64,000 nucleotides of DNA, from assembly GCA_020641055.1 (NCBI GenBank), contig CP067345.1:326001-390000 (forward strand), given 5' to 3'. The first letter of the stretch is position 1. Each line of letters opens with the position of its first letter. Position numbers and translations under genes: made by a program. The stretch is from Clostridioides sp. ES-S-0010-02 (GTDB taxonomy: Bacteria > Bacillota > Clostridia > Peptostreptococcales > Peptostreptococcaceae). The notes beneath the pieces are model-generated. The model ran no database searches, was not told where the DNA came from, and saw nothing but the letters and a program-made list of their open reading frames with translations. Shown piece after piece: positions 8,513-37,647 of this stretch.

Positions 8513-8674
8513 AATATCTAATTTATGTATTATTATAATTTATTGGAGTTGTATGTGTGTATATAAAAGTAAATGTTTCTTGTAAAACATGTGGATAAGT
8601 AATTAAAAACTAAATGCAATAAAAGATATAAAATTATGAATATTACGAATATAAAAAATATTTGCAAAAAAGTA

Positions 8675-14817: not shown

Positions 14818-15718
14818 GGACATATTTAAAAAAGATATAAAAGATATATTTAAAATGGAAGTTAGTCTAAAGGGAATCATTATAAAAGTCGTAATTTTAC
14901 TTGCTATTTTATCCTATGGATATTTTGGACTTTATCCACAATACGAGAAATATGTTTCTACAAAAAATTCTGTAAAACAAGCTACACAAAAATTAAATAC
15001 ATACAAAGAGAAAACAGCTCTTATGCCAAAATATGAAAAACAACTTAAAAATATTGAAACTGAATTAAATGAAAAAAGTAAAAACCTATTATATGATATG
15101 CAAGATGGTCTGTTTCTAATTGGTTTAGACAAGAAAATGAAAACATATAATATTGACTTAACTAGCTATGATGTTGGAAATATTAGAGAATATGAACATT
15201 TTTATGGAATATCAACAACAATAAGTGTTAGAGGGGATTATAGAAATGTTAAAAAATTGATGGCTTATTTAGAAGAGCAAAAAAATGTTACTCAGATATT
15301 AGACTATACTATGACTTCATATATAGAGCCAGAAAAAGAAGAACAAGAGACAACAAGTAATAAAGACTTAATTAAAAATGTGAACATAAATAAAGATACA
15401 AAAATATATTGGGTAGAAGGCGAAGATAAATGGCATTTATATAATGACTGTCCATTGATAAAAGAAGGAGAAATTCTTAAGAATGACAAACTTTTAGATA
15501 GGTCAACAAGTTATCTATGTAACACTTGTGTACTTAGAGCTGCAACAGAAAAAGAAACAAAAAAAGAAGTAGTAACTCCACAAGCAGAAGGTGTAGTAGA
15601 GGCTACATTTAAATTTATAATGTATACTAAAGAAAATACTACAATGGTACTTGATACAGATAATCCATCTTCATGGAGACCAGGAAAATATAATCCATTT
15701 AAATCTAGTGCAAAATAA
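14810..15718 (+). CDS. pilO: Pilus alignment protein PilO with a Cys/His insertion
   Basis: 302-residue bitopic protein. A membrane helix lies at ~23-42, a coiled coil at ~45-95, then the PilO ferredoxin-like domain (~100-170), which normally forms a heterodimer with PilN. After ~170 there is an extra segment: a charged linker (EPEKEEQE), then H209...C214...C237-x2-C240 in the setting KWHLYNDC...YLCNTC. This spacing resembles Ada-type or nuclease-associated H-C-C-x2-C metal or redox sites. The sequence then returns to a beta-rich tail. AAGGTG lies upstream of the ATG. Overlap with pilMN suggests translational coupling. Confidence 0.85.
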   Translation: MNKDIFKKDIKDIFKMEVSLKGIIIKVVILLAILSYGYFGLYPQYEKYVSTKNSVKQATQKLNTYKEKTALMPKYEKQLKNIETELNEKSKNLLYDMQDGLFLIGLDKKMKTYNIDLTSYDVGNIREYEHFYGISTTISVRGDYRNVKKLMAYLEEQKNVTQILDYTMTSYIEPEKEEQETTSNKDLIKNVNINKDTKIYWVEGEDKWHLYNDCPLIKEGEILKNDKLLDRSTSYLCNTCVLRAATEKETKKEVVTPQAEGVVEATFKFIMYTKENTTMVLDTDNPSSWRPGKYNPFKSSAK

Positions 15719-33034: not shown

Positions 33035-35407
33035 ATGCAAAGAAGTGTAGCAGTTGTAAAGAACAAAACTGTAAAACCAAATGTCATAAAATTAATAAGC
33101 GGATATATTGATTTTACTACAGTGTCATTCGCTGTAATGGGATTTTTACTTAGTAGGTCTATCATAGTAGACTCTGTAGCTCCTTTAGGGATTGCCTTTT
33201 TTATATGTGCATCAAAGATTGATAAGTACAAGATACCTGTATTTATATCAGCATTAATAGGGATATTGTTATCATTCAATGATTTTGGAAATGTAGCAAA
33301 ATATGCTGTGTGCCTTACAATATTTATGGCATTAAATAAGAAACTAAAACTATTAGATTCAATTGCCAAAGTGGCGTTTATAGGTGCAATGGTATTACTT
33401 CCAATTTCCATGGGACAAGCGTTCTTTTCTGATAGGTGTGTGTATAATCTGCTTGTTGCAGGTGTAGAAGCAATAATAATGTTTATATCTATATATGTAT
33501 TTTCTTATGGTATAGGTTTAATGGCCAATGTAAACAATAGGATGTCTGTACGGACAGAAGAAGCCATATCAATAAGTTTACTGCTAACCTTTAGTATAAT
33601 GGGGATAGGAGATATATCTTTATTTGGAATATCGATAAGGACCATTTTGTCAACAGTATTGATATTACTGACCTCAATAGTAGGTGGAGCTACCATGGGA
33701 GCATCTAGTGGTGTAATTATTGGAGTGGCATCTATTTTAAATAATATGACATCAGCTATTTATATGGGTATATATTCTTTTTCAGGATTAATAAGTGGTG
33801 CATTTAATAAAATAAATAAATATTTCTGTATATTAGGATATATTCTAAGTTGGACAATAATATACCTATATACTTCTGGTATTACTTCAAATATGATGCA
33901 ACTAAGAGATATATTGTTAGGATGCTTGATAGTGATTGTGTTGCCTGAAAGGTTATTCAATAAGATTGAAAAATTAATAAAAAGTAATGTAGCTTCAAAT
34001 GAAATTGTATACGATTATATTATGAGAAGCAAAAACTTAACGAATAGCCGATTAAACAGTATCTATAAAACCTATGATGACCTTGCAGATACATTTGACA
34101 AGATAAGGGAAAAGGATAAGGTGCTAGACCAAAGAGACATAGCTAATGTAATAGATATGATTCATAATGATGAATGTAAAAGTTGTAGTATGAGAAGAAT
34201 GTGTTGGGAATCAAGATTTAATCATACATACACTATGATATATAATATTCTTGAAAAAATTGAAGAGAAAGGAGAATTAAGTGTAAACGATATACCTAAA
34301 AACTTTAGAAAGGAATGTATGAAGCCAGAGTCAATAGTGAAAATATCAAATCACTATTATAAAATGTTTGTATTAGATTATGATTGGAGTGTGAAGTTTT
34401 CAGAAAGTAGAAAATTAATAGCAAATCAGATAAGGAGTATTTCAAAATCAATTAAATCGCTGTCTCAGGATTTAGAGGGCGATATAATGTTAGATATAGA
34501 GAAAGAAAAAAATATATATGAACAATTAGAGAGATATGATATAACTGTTGATAAAGTAAGTTACTTAACAAAGAGTAACAGCGAGTTTGAAATATCAATA
34601 GAAAAGAAAACTTGCAATGATGGTTGCATGTGTGAAAATAAAATTGTAGATATAATTTCAGACCTAGTAGGAGAGAATATGTCTGTTAGAAAAATAGGAT
34701 GTCACTGTTTAGGAGGTAAATGTAAAGCAACATTTGTTAAGTCTCAAAAATATAAGGCTGTTACAGAAGTTTCAGCAATGTCAAGGGATGGACATATCCT
34801 TTGTGGAGATAATTACACATATATGGAGATAAATGATGGCAAATATATGATGGCTATAAGCGATGGTATGGGAAAAGGTAAAAAAGCTTATGAAGAGTCT
34901 TCTGCTACTATTGATATACTAGAAAAAATGATAGATGCAAAGATTAAAGATGAAATAGTCATAGATACTATAAATAATATGTTGTTATTAAAGTCTTCAG
35001 AAGAAATGTTTTCAACTCTCGACTTAGGTATTTTAGATTTAAAACGAGGGTGTTTAGAAACTATAAAGATGGGAGCATGTTCTACCTATATAAAAAGAGA
35101 GGATGGAGAAGTTGATTTAATATCATCATCATCTTTACCTGTGGGTATATTGTCAGATGTAAAGATTGATAGAAAAAATGTAAAAGTTAAGGAAGGGGAC
35201 TATGTTATAATGGTTTCTGATGGAATTGTAGATGCAGGAAGAAATAACAATTTAGGTGATAATTGGTTAATATATTTCTTAAAAAACATAGAAACTACTA
35301 ATCCAAAAGAAATTTCAAATTTAATATTAGATAGAGCATTGGAGTTACAAGCGTTACAAATCGAAGATGACATGACTGTTCTAGTTACAAAAATATGTAC
35401 AAAATAA
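33035..35407 (+). CDS. spoIIE: Stage II sporulation protein E, PP2C-type phosphatase
   Basis: Integral membrane serine phosphatase that dephosphorylates SpoIIAA and so triggers sigma-F in the forespore; it also acts at the polar septum. 790 residues, slightly shorter than the B. subtilis protein. About ten membrane segments span ~25-310. A central regulatory region includes C381-x2-C384-x5-C390, then C527/C531/C533 and C556/C558/C563. The C-terminal PP2C domain (~580-790) has AISDGMGKGKKA, STLDLGILDL and MVSDGIVDAG with the metal-binding aspartates. The ATG follows the SD-containing hairpin described separately. Downstream lies the DnaA-box-rich gap. Confidence 0.97.
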   Translation: MQRSVAVVKNKTVKPNVIKLISGYIDFTTVSFAVMGFLLSRSIIVDSVAPLGIAFFICASKIDKYKIPVFISALIGILLSFNDFGNVAKYAVCLTIFMALNKKLKLLDSIAKVAFIGAMVLLPISMGQAFFSDRCVYNLLVAGVEAIIMFISIYVFSYGIGLMANVNNRMSVRTEEAISISLLLTFSIMGIGDISLFGISIRTILSTVLILLTSIVGGATMGASSGVIIGVASILNNMTSAIYMGIYSFSGLISGAFNKINKYFCILGYILSWTIIYLYTSGITSNMMQLRDILLGCLIVIVLPERLFNKIEKLIKSNVASNEIVYDYIMRSKNLTNSRLNSIYKTYDDLADTFDKIREKDKVLDQRDIANVIDMIHNDECKSCSMRRMCWESRFNHTYTMIYNILEKIEEKGELSVNDIPKNFRKECMKPESIVKISNHYYKMFVLDYDWSVKFSESRKLIANQIRSISKSIKSLSQDLEGDIMLDIEKEKNIYEQLERYDITVDKVSYLTKSNSEFEISIEKKTCNDGCMCENKIVDIISDLVGENMSVRKIGCHCLGGKCKATFVKSQKYKAVTEVSAMSRDGHILCGDNYTYMEINDGKYMMAISDGMGKGKKAYEESSATIDILEKMIDAKIKDEIVIDTINNMLLLKSSEEMFSTLDLGILDLKRGCLETIKMGACSTYIKREDGEVDLISSSSLPVGILSDVKIDRKNVKVKEGDYVIMVSDGIVDAGRNNNLGDNWLIYFLKNIETTNPKEISNLILDRALELQALQIEDDMTVLVTKICTK

Positions 35408-35421
35408 ACTTTATAAATTTC

Positions 35422-35461
35422 TGTGTATAATATGTGGATAACTTGTGTATAATGTGTTAAT
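35422..35461 (+). repeat. Phased array of four DnaA-box-like 9-mers
   Basis: TGTGTATAA (35422-35430), TGTGGATAA (35433-35441), TGTGTATAA (35444-35452) and TGTGTTAAT (35453-35461), all in one orientation; the first three start 11 bp apart. TGTGGATAA is the complement of the consensus DnaA box TTATCCACA. Confidence 0.7.
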
Positions 35462-35517
35462 AGACTTTTGAAAAAAGTAAAGTTATTAACAAAAAAAACG
35501 TATAAATCAACAAAATT

Positions 35518-35656
35518 TGTTGATAAGTATGGCATAAATGTTAATAAAATGTAAAAAAAGAAAAAACAAAAGCTATTATCAAAAGAGATTCATGTTGAAA
35601 TAACTAAATTTCTAAGCAAGTAAAGCCTGTGAATATGTTGATTATTATGTGGATAA
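35518..35656 (+). repeat. Further DnaA-box-like 9-mers in the spoIIE-peptidase gap
   Basis: TGTTGATAA (35518-35526, one mismatch), TGTTAATAA (35539-35547), TGTTGATTA (35636-35644) and a perfect TGTGGATAA (35648-35656). All have the same orientation as the array at 35422-35461. The rest of the 350-bp gap 35408-35757 is AT-rich, with no gene that I can support. Confidence 0.6.
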
Positions 35657-35709
35657 CTATTAATTCGATATTTATTTATATAGTATGAATAATTGAATAA
35701 TATATCTAA

Positions 35710-35757
35710 AAAAAGCCATCCTATTATTAAGTAAACTTATTGAAAGGATGGCTTTTT
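35710..35757 (+). terminator. Terminator-like hairpin abutting the M3 peptidase start codon
   Basis: AAAAAGCCATCCT (35710-35722) pairs perfectly with AGGATGGCTTTTT (35745-35757), a 13-bp stem. The T run ends at the base before the ATG at 35758, and the 3' arm contains the AAAGGATGG ribosome site. It can end transcription from upstream or hide the ribosome site. Confidence 0.75.
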
Positions 35758-37647
35758 ATGAATAGGAAATTGTGCAAAGCAATAATACCTTTATTTATCT
35801 CTATTTTTTGCATGTTAATAATAAGTATAAAAGCTGACCAAGGATATCAAAAAAATAATGATAGAGCAATTACTGTCATGAATAATGATACTGAAGATGA
35901 TGCTGAAAAAAAACAAGAAATAGATTATGAAAAAACATGTTGGAATTTACAGTCTCTATTTAAAAGTGATGACCAATGGAAAAAAGAACTTAAGAGTTTT
36001 AATAAAGATACAAAAGAACTTAAAAATTACATAGGTAAAGTTACAAAGTCACCAACGCATTTGTCTTTTGCGTTAGATATCAAAGAGAAACTTGATATAA
36101 GATTAAATAAACTTTCTGCTTATGTAAAATTAAAACAAGATACTAATAAAAATTCATATAAATATTTAGATATGAGTGATAGTATGGGTAAATCTTATGG
36201 AGACTATATGGGGATTTGCTCAGATTTAGAGTTAGAGATATTAAAATTATCAAATAGAGATTATAAGAAGATTATTTCAAATAAAAATATAAATAGAAAA
36301 TATGGTGTGTATTTAAGAGATATAAGAAGAAATAAAGTACATTATTTGGACGATAAATCAGAAGATATTCTAAGTAAAGTGTCTTCAATAAGTAGTCTTC
36401 CAAGTCAAGTGTATGAGTTATTTAGAAATATGGATAGAAAAACTAATTTGACACCAGCTCAATATGCAAGTGAACTGGAATCGCCAGATAGAGAAAATAG
36501 AAAAAAAGCTTATCAAGATGAACTCATTACTTATAATGATAATATAAATACAATTGCGGGCTTGATTACTGGCCAAGTTAAAAAGAATATATTTTATTCT
36601 CAAGAAAGAGGTTATGAGTCGTCTTTAGAAATGTATTTAGAATCTGATAATGTAGATGAAAAAGTATACAATAATTTAATAAGAACTGTAAACAGTAATA
36701 TGGATAGTTTACACAAATATATAGATTTAAGAAAAAAAGTCTTAAAGTTGGATAAGGTTCATTCATATGATATGTCTGTACCTATAGTTAAGGCTGTTGA
36801 TAGTAATATTAACTATGAAAAAGCTCAGAGTATAGTATATTCAGCATTATCACCTTTGGGAAAAGAATACAATGATGTAGTATACAAAGCGTTTAATGAA
36901 AAATGGATAGATGTTTATTCACATGAAAATAAAGTGAGTGGTGGATATTGCCTATCTGTCTATGAAAATCATCCATATATACTTTTAAATTATAATAATT
37001 CGCTAGGCTCAGTTTCAACTTTATCACATGAGTTAGGTCATGCTGTATATGAATATCTAAGTTCTAAGAACCAAAATTATTTTAATTCAAGTCCATCTAT
37101 ATTTACTCATGAAGTTGCGTCTACTACTAATGAGGCATTACTTTATGAGATGCTTATAAGAGAATCTAAAAGTAATGGTGAGAAAGCTTATTATATAACA
37201 CAATATCTAGATTTAATAAAGGATACTCTTTATACACAAACTATGTATGCTGAATTTGAAAAAACTATACATGAATTAGTAGAAAAAGGAAAAAGTGTAA
37301 ATGCATTAGTGTTAAATGATGTTTGGGGACAACTTCTCAAGAAGTATTATGGGCAAAACTATGAATTAGACCAATTATCTAAGGTCGGATGGGCAAGAAT
37401 CCCACATTTTTATAATAGTTTTTATGTCTATAAATATGCTACAGGCTGTAGTGCAGGAGTCAGTTTCGCCCAAGATATACTAAAAAATGGCTCAGATAAT
37501 TATATAAATTTTCTTAAAAAAGGAAGCTCAGATTATCCAATAGACTTATTAAAAGGAAGTGGGATAAATTTAACTAATACAAAACCTATAGAAAATACAA
37601 TCAAAAAATTTGACAGCTTAGTAGCAGAACTTGAAAAGCTATTATAA
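35758..37647 (+). CDS. Secreted or membrane-anchored M3 oligoendopeptidase (PepF-like)
   Basis: Zinc metallopeptidase that cleaves short peptides. 629 residues from ATG 35758. Unlike typical cytoplasmic PepF, it begins with MNRKLCKAIIPLFISIFCMLI, a signal peptide or membrane anchor, so it probably acts outside the membrane. The M3 fold fills ~60-620. The zinc site is H424-E-L-G-H428, with the third ligand near E452 (EVASTTNEALL), and the substrate-binding segment GWARIPHFYNSFYVYKYATG lies near 545. A hairpin containing the ribosome site precedes it. The substrate is unknown; a link to spore or wall peptides would be speculation. Confidence 0.9.
   Translation: MNRKLCKAIIPLFISIFCMLIISIKADQGYQKNNDRAITVMNNDTEDDAEKKQEIDYEKTCWNLQSLFKSDDQWKKELKSFNKDTKELKNYIGKVTKSPTHLSFALDIKEKLDIRLNKLSAYVKLKQDTNKNSYKYLDMSDSMGKSYGDYMGICSDLELEILKLSNRDYKKIISNKNINRKYGVYLRDIRRNKVHYLDDKSEDILSKVSSISSLPSQVYELFRNMDRKTNLTPAQYASELESPDRENRKKAYQDELITYNDNINTIAGLITGQVKKNIFYSQERGYESSLEMYLESDNVDEKVYNNLIRTVNSNMDSLHKYIDLRKKVLKLDKVHSYDMSVPIVKAVDSNINYEKAQSIVYSALSPLGKEYNDVVYKAFNEKWIDVYSHENKVSGGYCLSVYENHPYILLNYNNSLGSVSTLSHELGHAVYEYLSSKNQNYFNSSPSIFTHEVASTTNEALLYEMLIRESKSNGEKAYYITQYLDLIKDTLYTQTMYAEFEKTIHELVEKGKSVNALVLNDVWGQLLKKYYGQNYELDQLSKVGWARIPHFYNSFYVYKYATGCSAGVSFAQDILKNGSDNYINFLKKGSSDYPIDLLKGSGINLTNTKPIENTIKKFDSLVAELEKLL

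Follow-up and report, generated by a model that had tools for sequence, protein, structure and literature searches.

Based on a survey of DnaA boxes in a 64-kb stretch of DNA (hereafter the window; C1:326001-390000 of the source genome G000, which is one contig of 4,259,110 bases), a cluster of phased boxes is recognized behind spoIIE, at window positions 35422-35656 (C1:361422-361656), and the 3' end of spoIIE is the anchor of this cluster family-wide. With a probability of roughly 0.6, the spoIIE 3' flank is a cluster lying close to oriC that would restrain initiation by holding DnaA, in the manner of the Bacillus subtilis clusters, and the site most likely helps to set the timing of chromosome copying. 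A DnaA-box cluster of B. subtilis type outside oriC had been proposed in an earlier note on this DNA; the observation is confirmed and holds more strongly than was claimed there, and the assignment is strongly backed by the density of the boxes, their conservation, the types that they share with oriC and their position close to oriC.

Two definitions of a box were used, namely the consensus TTATNCACA and the extended form TTATNMACA. The spoIIE gene (33035..35407, + strand) is an ORF of 790 aa with the Pfam domains SpoIIE_N and SpoIIE, and its product is 97-98% identical to those of four Clostridioides difficile records. The boxes behind it form three modules. Module A, on the - strand, comprises three motif matches, TTATACACA (TGTGTATAA on the + strand) at 35422..35430, a perfect TTATCCACA at 35433..35441 and a second TTATACACA at 35444..35452, together with a weak box (TGTTAATAG on the + strand) at 35455..35463. 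The first three starts had been described as 11 bp apart, which is exact, with TGTGTATAA at 35422 and 35444, and the same phase extends to the weaker fourth site at 35455. In module B, an oppositely oriented TTATTAACA (35483..35491, + strand) lies 35 bp ahead of TTATCAACA (35518..35526, - strand), and a further TTATTAACA (35539..35547, - strand) follows exactly 21 bp from the latter. Module C (35628..35656, - strand) is a triple with starts at 0/8/20, made of a weak TGTGAATAT, a weak TGTTGATTA and a perfect TGTGGATAA at 35648, and its start is 89 bp past that of the final box in module B. The two or more perfect boxes that had been claimed are found as TGTGGATAA at 35433-35441 and 35648-35656. 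The claim of a single orientation holds for the four consensus boxes, but not for all seven extended ones, of which the TTATTAACA at 35483 is reversed. Two other perfect boxes, at 8590 and 30482, are intergenic as stated (flanked by ORFs of 80 aa or more), and a fifth, absent from the earlier note, lies within an ORF at 14932.

The window as a whole contains five perfect boxes against 1.0 expected, and none of 100 shuffles reached five. When one mismatch was allowed, 36 boxes were found against 24.6 expected, and one shuffle in 100 reached 36; an isolated one-mismatch box therefore means little. By comparison with 5000 dinucleotide shuffles, none of which matched either count, the 300 bp after spoIIE hold four consensus boxes (shuffle mean 0.09, maximum 2) and seven extended boxes (shuffle mean 0.22, maximum 3). 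In 13 sampled 20-kb stretches of the source genome, no 300-bp step held more than one consensus or more than two extended boxes. The consensus TTATNCACA is not over-represented in the 4.26-Mb genome (254 copies vs 286 for the reversed pattern), and it is thus the clustering that is exceptional. At least three consensus boxes with gaps of at most 250 bp occur at six places in the genome, whereas 500 random placements gave a mean of 0.05 and a maximum of two. At least four occur at only three places, namely oriC, the spoIIE site and 3712.3 kb, and never in the random placements; the spoIIE site is thus a grouping of boxes outside oriC much denser than chance would give. At the third place (L042, C1:3712271-3712354), four consensus boxes lie within 84 bp between a Mor-family gene, which adjoins a DnaB-like gene, and a ferredoxin-like gene; this locus is perhaps a mobile element.

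The sample of the GTDB family comprised 71 genomes, 54 of which gave a SpoIIE match below E 1e-200; one (G050), whose contig ends inside spoIIE, was dropped, and 53 were counted. At least three extended boxes lie behind spoIIE in 49 of the 53 and at least two consensus boxes in 42; as genomes within a genus are related, such counts overstate independence, and the fairer measure is that 16 of 17 genera have a member with at least three extended boxes. Altogether, the 53 gaps contain 142 consensus boxes, and extended boxes number 284, whereas the reversed extended motif gave 14 matches, the gap being set to 320 bp where the pepF hairpin was missing, which may include coding sequence and may affect genera g2, g21 and g22. 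The exceptions are G017, G018 and G024, with 0-1 extended boxes, and G013, with two; the cluster is thus not indispensable. In 15 of 16 loci compared (four of them from C. difficile; L014, L018 and L019 left out), the 420 bp behind spoIIE are the box-richest 420-bp stretch of the locus, and in the sixteenth (L016) there is a tie at one box. Outside the family, 20 spoIIE loci from the same taxonomic order contain at most one box in 350 bp (L121, which has no flank, was omitted), and the cluster therefore arose in, or was kept only by, the family as sampled. When the triple was sought with a 29-base pattern, one mismatch being tolerated, 31 of the 71 family genomes each had exactly one copy, and the reversed control pattern was never matched. 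A search of 391 sampled genomes of the class included seven of the family, two of them matching, and gave no match in the 384 from outside it.

The arrangement of the boxes is conserved as well, as judged from scans that admit very weak boxes. Same-strand pairs 11 bp apart, of the module A type, occur in 24 of 53 genomes (seven genera). Module B is a pair of boxes spaced by 21 bp, in most cases preceded by an opposite-strand box, and the module C triple, with starts at 0/8/20 (0/9/21 in g21 and g22), is recognized in 43 genomes of 14 genera. Among the 37 genomes with a 0/8/20 triple, 34 also have module B, and 23 of these place C at 89 bp from B; the other distances are 88 (three), 90 (two), 92 (two), 80 (one) and 78 (three), such that eight of the 34 deviate from 89 bp by something other than a whole turn. 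The opposite box precedes module B by 35 bp in 17 of the 34 (eight genomes of the C. difficile genus, which also carry a nearer weak opposite box at 14, and nine others), by 34 bp in six and by 24 bp in four, and was not found in seven. The values of 78 for the B-C distance and 24 for the opposite box are the usual ones minus 11, about one helical turn. The letters of the B-C spacer are only 54% identical among seven genus representatives, compared with 37% when shuffled. An element like TTGAAAAAACTAAAT (35595-35609 in the window), about 30 bp before the triple, recurs in this spacer among the genus representatives.

Within the eight genomes of the C. difficile genus, none of 89 box positions is variable, against 25 of 217 elsewhere in the gap (Fisher p = 1.5e-4), the 89 positions consisting of the seven extended boxes and three weak boxes that were added after inspection. 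Divergence is lower in boxes than at other positions in 11 of 12 genera, in a comparison that omits G017, G018 and G024. Summed over the 12 genera, boxes differ in 261 of 8837 comparisons and other positions in 7115 of 41905, with pairs counted both ways and hence non-independent. Genus g21 shows the opposite trend (14 of 44 in boxes vs 66 of 374 in the flank).

In the source genome, dnaA (C1:152504-153820) has boxes on both sides and is flanked by what we take, by eye, to be dnaN and rnpA, one on each side. The cluster had been described as away from the origin; it is indeed outside oriC, but the term is relative, as only about 207 kb separate it from dnaA, which amounts to 5% of the chromosome. 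In the 14 of 30 genomes for which the distance was calculated (G010, G046, G052 and G062 being treated as circles), it is roughly 120-270 kb, and the site is thus near oriC in these; in the remainder, the two genes are on the same contig in G004, G047 and G054 and on different contigs in 13. The four commonest extended boxes, TTATCCACA, TTATCAACA, TTATACACA and TTATTAACA, are the same beside dnaA (30 genomes, five of them without sequence upstream of dnaA) and behind spoIIE (53 genomes), whereas TTATAAACA is commoner at oriC (22 vs 1). The DnaA of C. difficile is predicted to recognise TTWTNCACA (PMC7561715), and the oriC1 and oriC2 described in that article share their leading box types and adjacent box pairs with the spoIIE cluster.

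When 14 genomes were scanned for box pairs, a few places were hit repeatedly among the matches listed, which totalled 200 against 55 for reversed-pattern controls (G061, G062 and G065 left out of the listed matches). Gene contexts were determined by tblastn for 20 places picked from these matches, which show recurrence and not rates. Boxes lie behind nrdG in five of the 20 picked loci, with one more beside a weak nrdG-like match, and between dnaC and purA in another five. All nine hpf loci, picked from pattern matches, have TGTGGATAATGTGGATAAnnnTGTTAATAA or a variant of it (0/9/21) upstream of the gene. The order of 9 then 12 in the hpf triple is that of the spoIIE triple in g21 and g22, and the order is reversed at nrdG (12 then 9). 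The source genome carries all three, namely the 0/9/21 triple upstream of hpf (Pfam S30AE) at C1:4216665-4216694 (L026), a cluster behind the anaerobic ribonucleotide reductase genes nrdDG at C1:11574-11657 (L022), and one between dnaC, the replicative helicase gene, and purA at C1:176062-176146 (L130), about 22 kb from dnaA; the latter two are recurrent in relatives. Because these places recur and carry boxes in the source genome, the spoIIE cluster is one of a set.

The next gene after the cluster in most genera is a pepF-like gene for an M3 oligopeptidase (35758..37647, + strand, in the window; Pfam Peptidase_M3), with a hairpin ahead of it. In eight genomes (G001, G002 and G059-G064), however, no pepF match was found behind spoIIE in the flank inspected (774 bp in G059 and about 1.55-1.6 kb in the other seven), and boxes are kept nevertheless, beginning 1-28 bases past the spoIIE stop. 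Six of them (G001, G002 and G061-G064) share a homologous gene that comes next on the opposite strand, so that their boxes are kept between convergent genes, a setting in which a promoter is not expected; a small ORF with the orientation of spoIIE intervenes in G060. Conversely, G017, G018 and G024 have pepF behind spoIIE and only 0-1 boxes. The boxes and pepF thus do not stay together, and the cluster belongs with spoIIE and not with pepF.

These data bear on what the cluster does. The earlier note had offered three roles, of which titration of DnaA, with restraint of initiation, is the best fit, while the incomplete association with pepF disfavours regulation of the peptidase, which was rejected as the main role. 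In a broader form, DnaA bound at the cluster would control pepF or read-through from spoIIE and would couple their expression to DnaA activity, like B. subtilis sda. DnaA is a transcription factor in B. subtilis (according to PMC4447404), and in C. difficile the cluster is followed by a strong leader hairpin and then by the start of pepF, about 100-340 bp further on; this reading is nonetheless unlikely in view of the eight clusters without pepF, six of them beside a convergent gene, the three pepF genes without a cluster, and sigma-70-type promoter matches at chance level (5 vs 5.4 in shuffles; only this type was sought). A different proposal is that the cluster changes the nucleotide state of DnaA, as do datA, DARS1 and DARS2 of Escherichia coli, which are likewise non-coding chromosomal loci with several DnaA boxes. 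The phasing would then position DnaA protomers for ATP hydrolysis or ADP release, and the single-copy triple, its fixed 8-9/12 spacing and the nearly fixed distances between modules are in keeping with this, as is the 9+12 spacing at hpf (9/9 loci, chosen from pattern matches). It is rather improbable, however, since datA works with IHF, and B. subtilis is reported to have neither IHF nor datA or DARS (PMC13220808).

A cryptic or former second replication origin was also considered, as the AT-rich gap contains boxes of the oriC type. In oriC2 of C. difficile, a DnaA-trio of the CTACTACTATTACTACTA type adjoins the box pair, while the spoIIE cluster has neither the dnaA gene nor such a trio beside its boxes (compared with oriC1 and oriC2 as given in PMC7561715). 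The trio, sought in the simple form TAGTAG/CTACTA, is absent from the C. difficile gap and is present in three of the 53 gaps. Together with the distance of about 207 kb to dnaA, its absence from the C. difficile gap makes a second origin very improbable, and this reading was rejected. Chance or AT-rich composition, or else a structured RNA in the 3' untranslated region of spoIIE, has a practically negligible probability. The AT-rich gap and the lack of a genome-wide excess of consensus boxes speak for it, but the shuffles, the scarcity of the reversed motif (14 vs 284) and the conservation of the cluster argue against chance. As for an RNA, the fold of the gap is weak (z -1.5; 8 of 100 shuffles folded equally well), and an Rfam scan of 35200-36000 gave no match in the cluster and one sub-threshold snoRNA match outside it; both possibilities were rejected on these grounds.

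Restraint of initiation by a DnaA-holding cluster would operate as follows. The three modules comprise roughly ten boxes, some strong and others weak, on which DnaA is expected to bind and to assemble cooperatively into a defined nucleoprotein complex. Lying about 5% of the chromosome from oriC, the site would be duplicated soon after each initiation, and the fresh copies would bind DnaA, so that less of it would remain for firing oriC again, a mechanism put forward for the B. subtilis clusters; the hpf, nrdDG and dnaC-purA siblings would act jointly with it. The sequence establishes the cluster, how it is conserved and arranged, where it lies and its siblings; the binding, the assembly and the effect on initiation are all inferred. 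The known clusters of B. subtilis (Okumura et al. 2012, as cited in PMC5295017 and PMC13220808) likewise consist of several intergenic boxes and are oriC-proximal. However, none of the eight strongest regions given in these sources lies at spoIIE, and the present locus differs in being fixed across a family and in having a single-copy triple of fixed spacing. For B. subtilis, DnaA binding and an effect on initiation have been demonstrated, whereas the spoIIE cluster is described here from DNA letters. Removal of six B. subtilis clusters is reported to cause early initiation, partially relieved when one was restored (PMC5295017). About 10-fold overproduction of DnaA reportedly gave no over-initiation in that species (PMC13220808), a point against simple titration there. 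The fixed geometry at spoIIE exceeds the needs of pure titration, and may indicate a device of a more specific kind or a structured complex.

The third role offered, loading of DnaA during sporulation, receives only indirect support from a Spo0A-box core found in the cluster of some members. TGTCGAA is the core recognised in vitro by C. difficile Spo0A (PMC3485338), and its complement, TTCGACA, occurs 89-137 bases past the spoIIE stop in 18 of the 53 genomes, belonging to eight genera (G011, G012, G025-G029, G046-G048 and G051-G058). Among the 53 gaps searched, those of the C. difficile genus do not contain it. According to PMC3485338, the genome of C. difficile 630 has 102 perfect cores, and one core per 400-bp gap would thus be rare there. 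The sequence TTTGACA near oriC1 was considered as a Spo0A-like site and rejected, as by eye it resembles a promoter -35 element (it was left uncounted). A bolder idea, which we regard as unlikely, is that the cluster is a geometrically fixed DnaA machine and no passive sponge, in which three phased modules form one complex that would set DnaA activity, and in which the Spo0A box of at least eight genera would reset this complex and couple commitment to sporulation to a block of replication.

Among open-licence papers, we found none that describes, for C. difficile or its relatives, DnaA-box clusters beyond oriC, and the main text of the C. difficile oriC study (PMC7561715) mentions neither titration nor spoIIE. 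Searches whose scope excluded most subscription papers and all preprints gave no paper joining the C. difficile DnaA box with spoIIE, and none joining Clostridium DnaA ChIP, DnaA boxes and sporulation. The family-wide candidate control loci, with exact coordinates, make titration testable beyond B. subtilis and E. coli. For the spoIIE cluster, the helical spacing suggests that DnaA forms an ordered complex, which could be studied structurally, and the position behind spoIIE suggests a connection of sporulation with the control of replication that can be put to the test.

The hairpin ahead of pepF (GCCATCC...GGATGGC; 35710..35757, + strand) is terminator-like and lies outside the cluster, with a fold of -22.9 kcal/mol (z -6.65). 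A simple terminator scan restricted to loops of 3-8 missed it. Of the 30 triple loci inspected (out of 31 triples, that of G070 being without a locus), 29 have such a hairpin nearby. As the hairpin ends at the pepF start codon and its 3' arm includes the presumed ribosome-binding site, it is possibly an attenuator or a translation switch.
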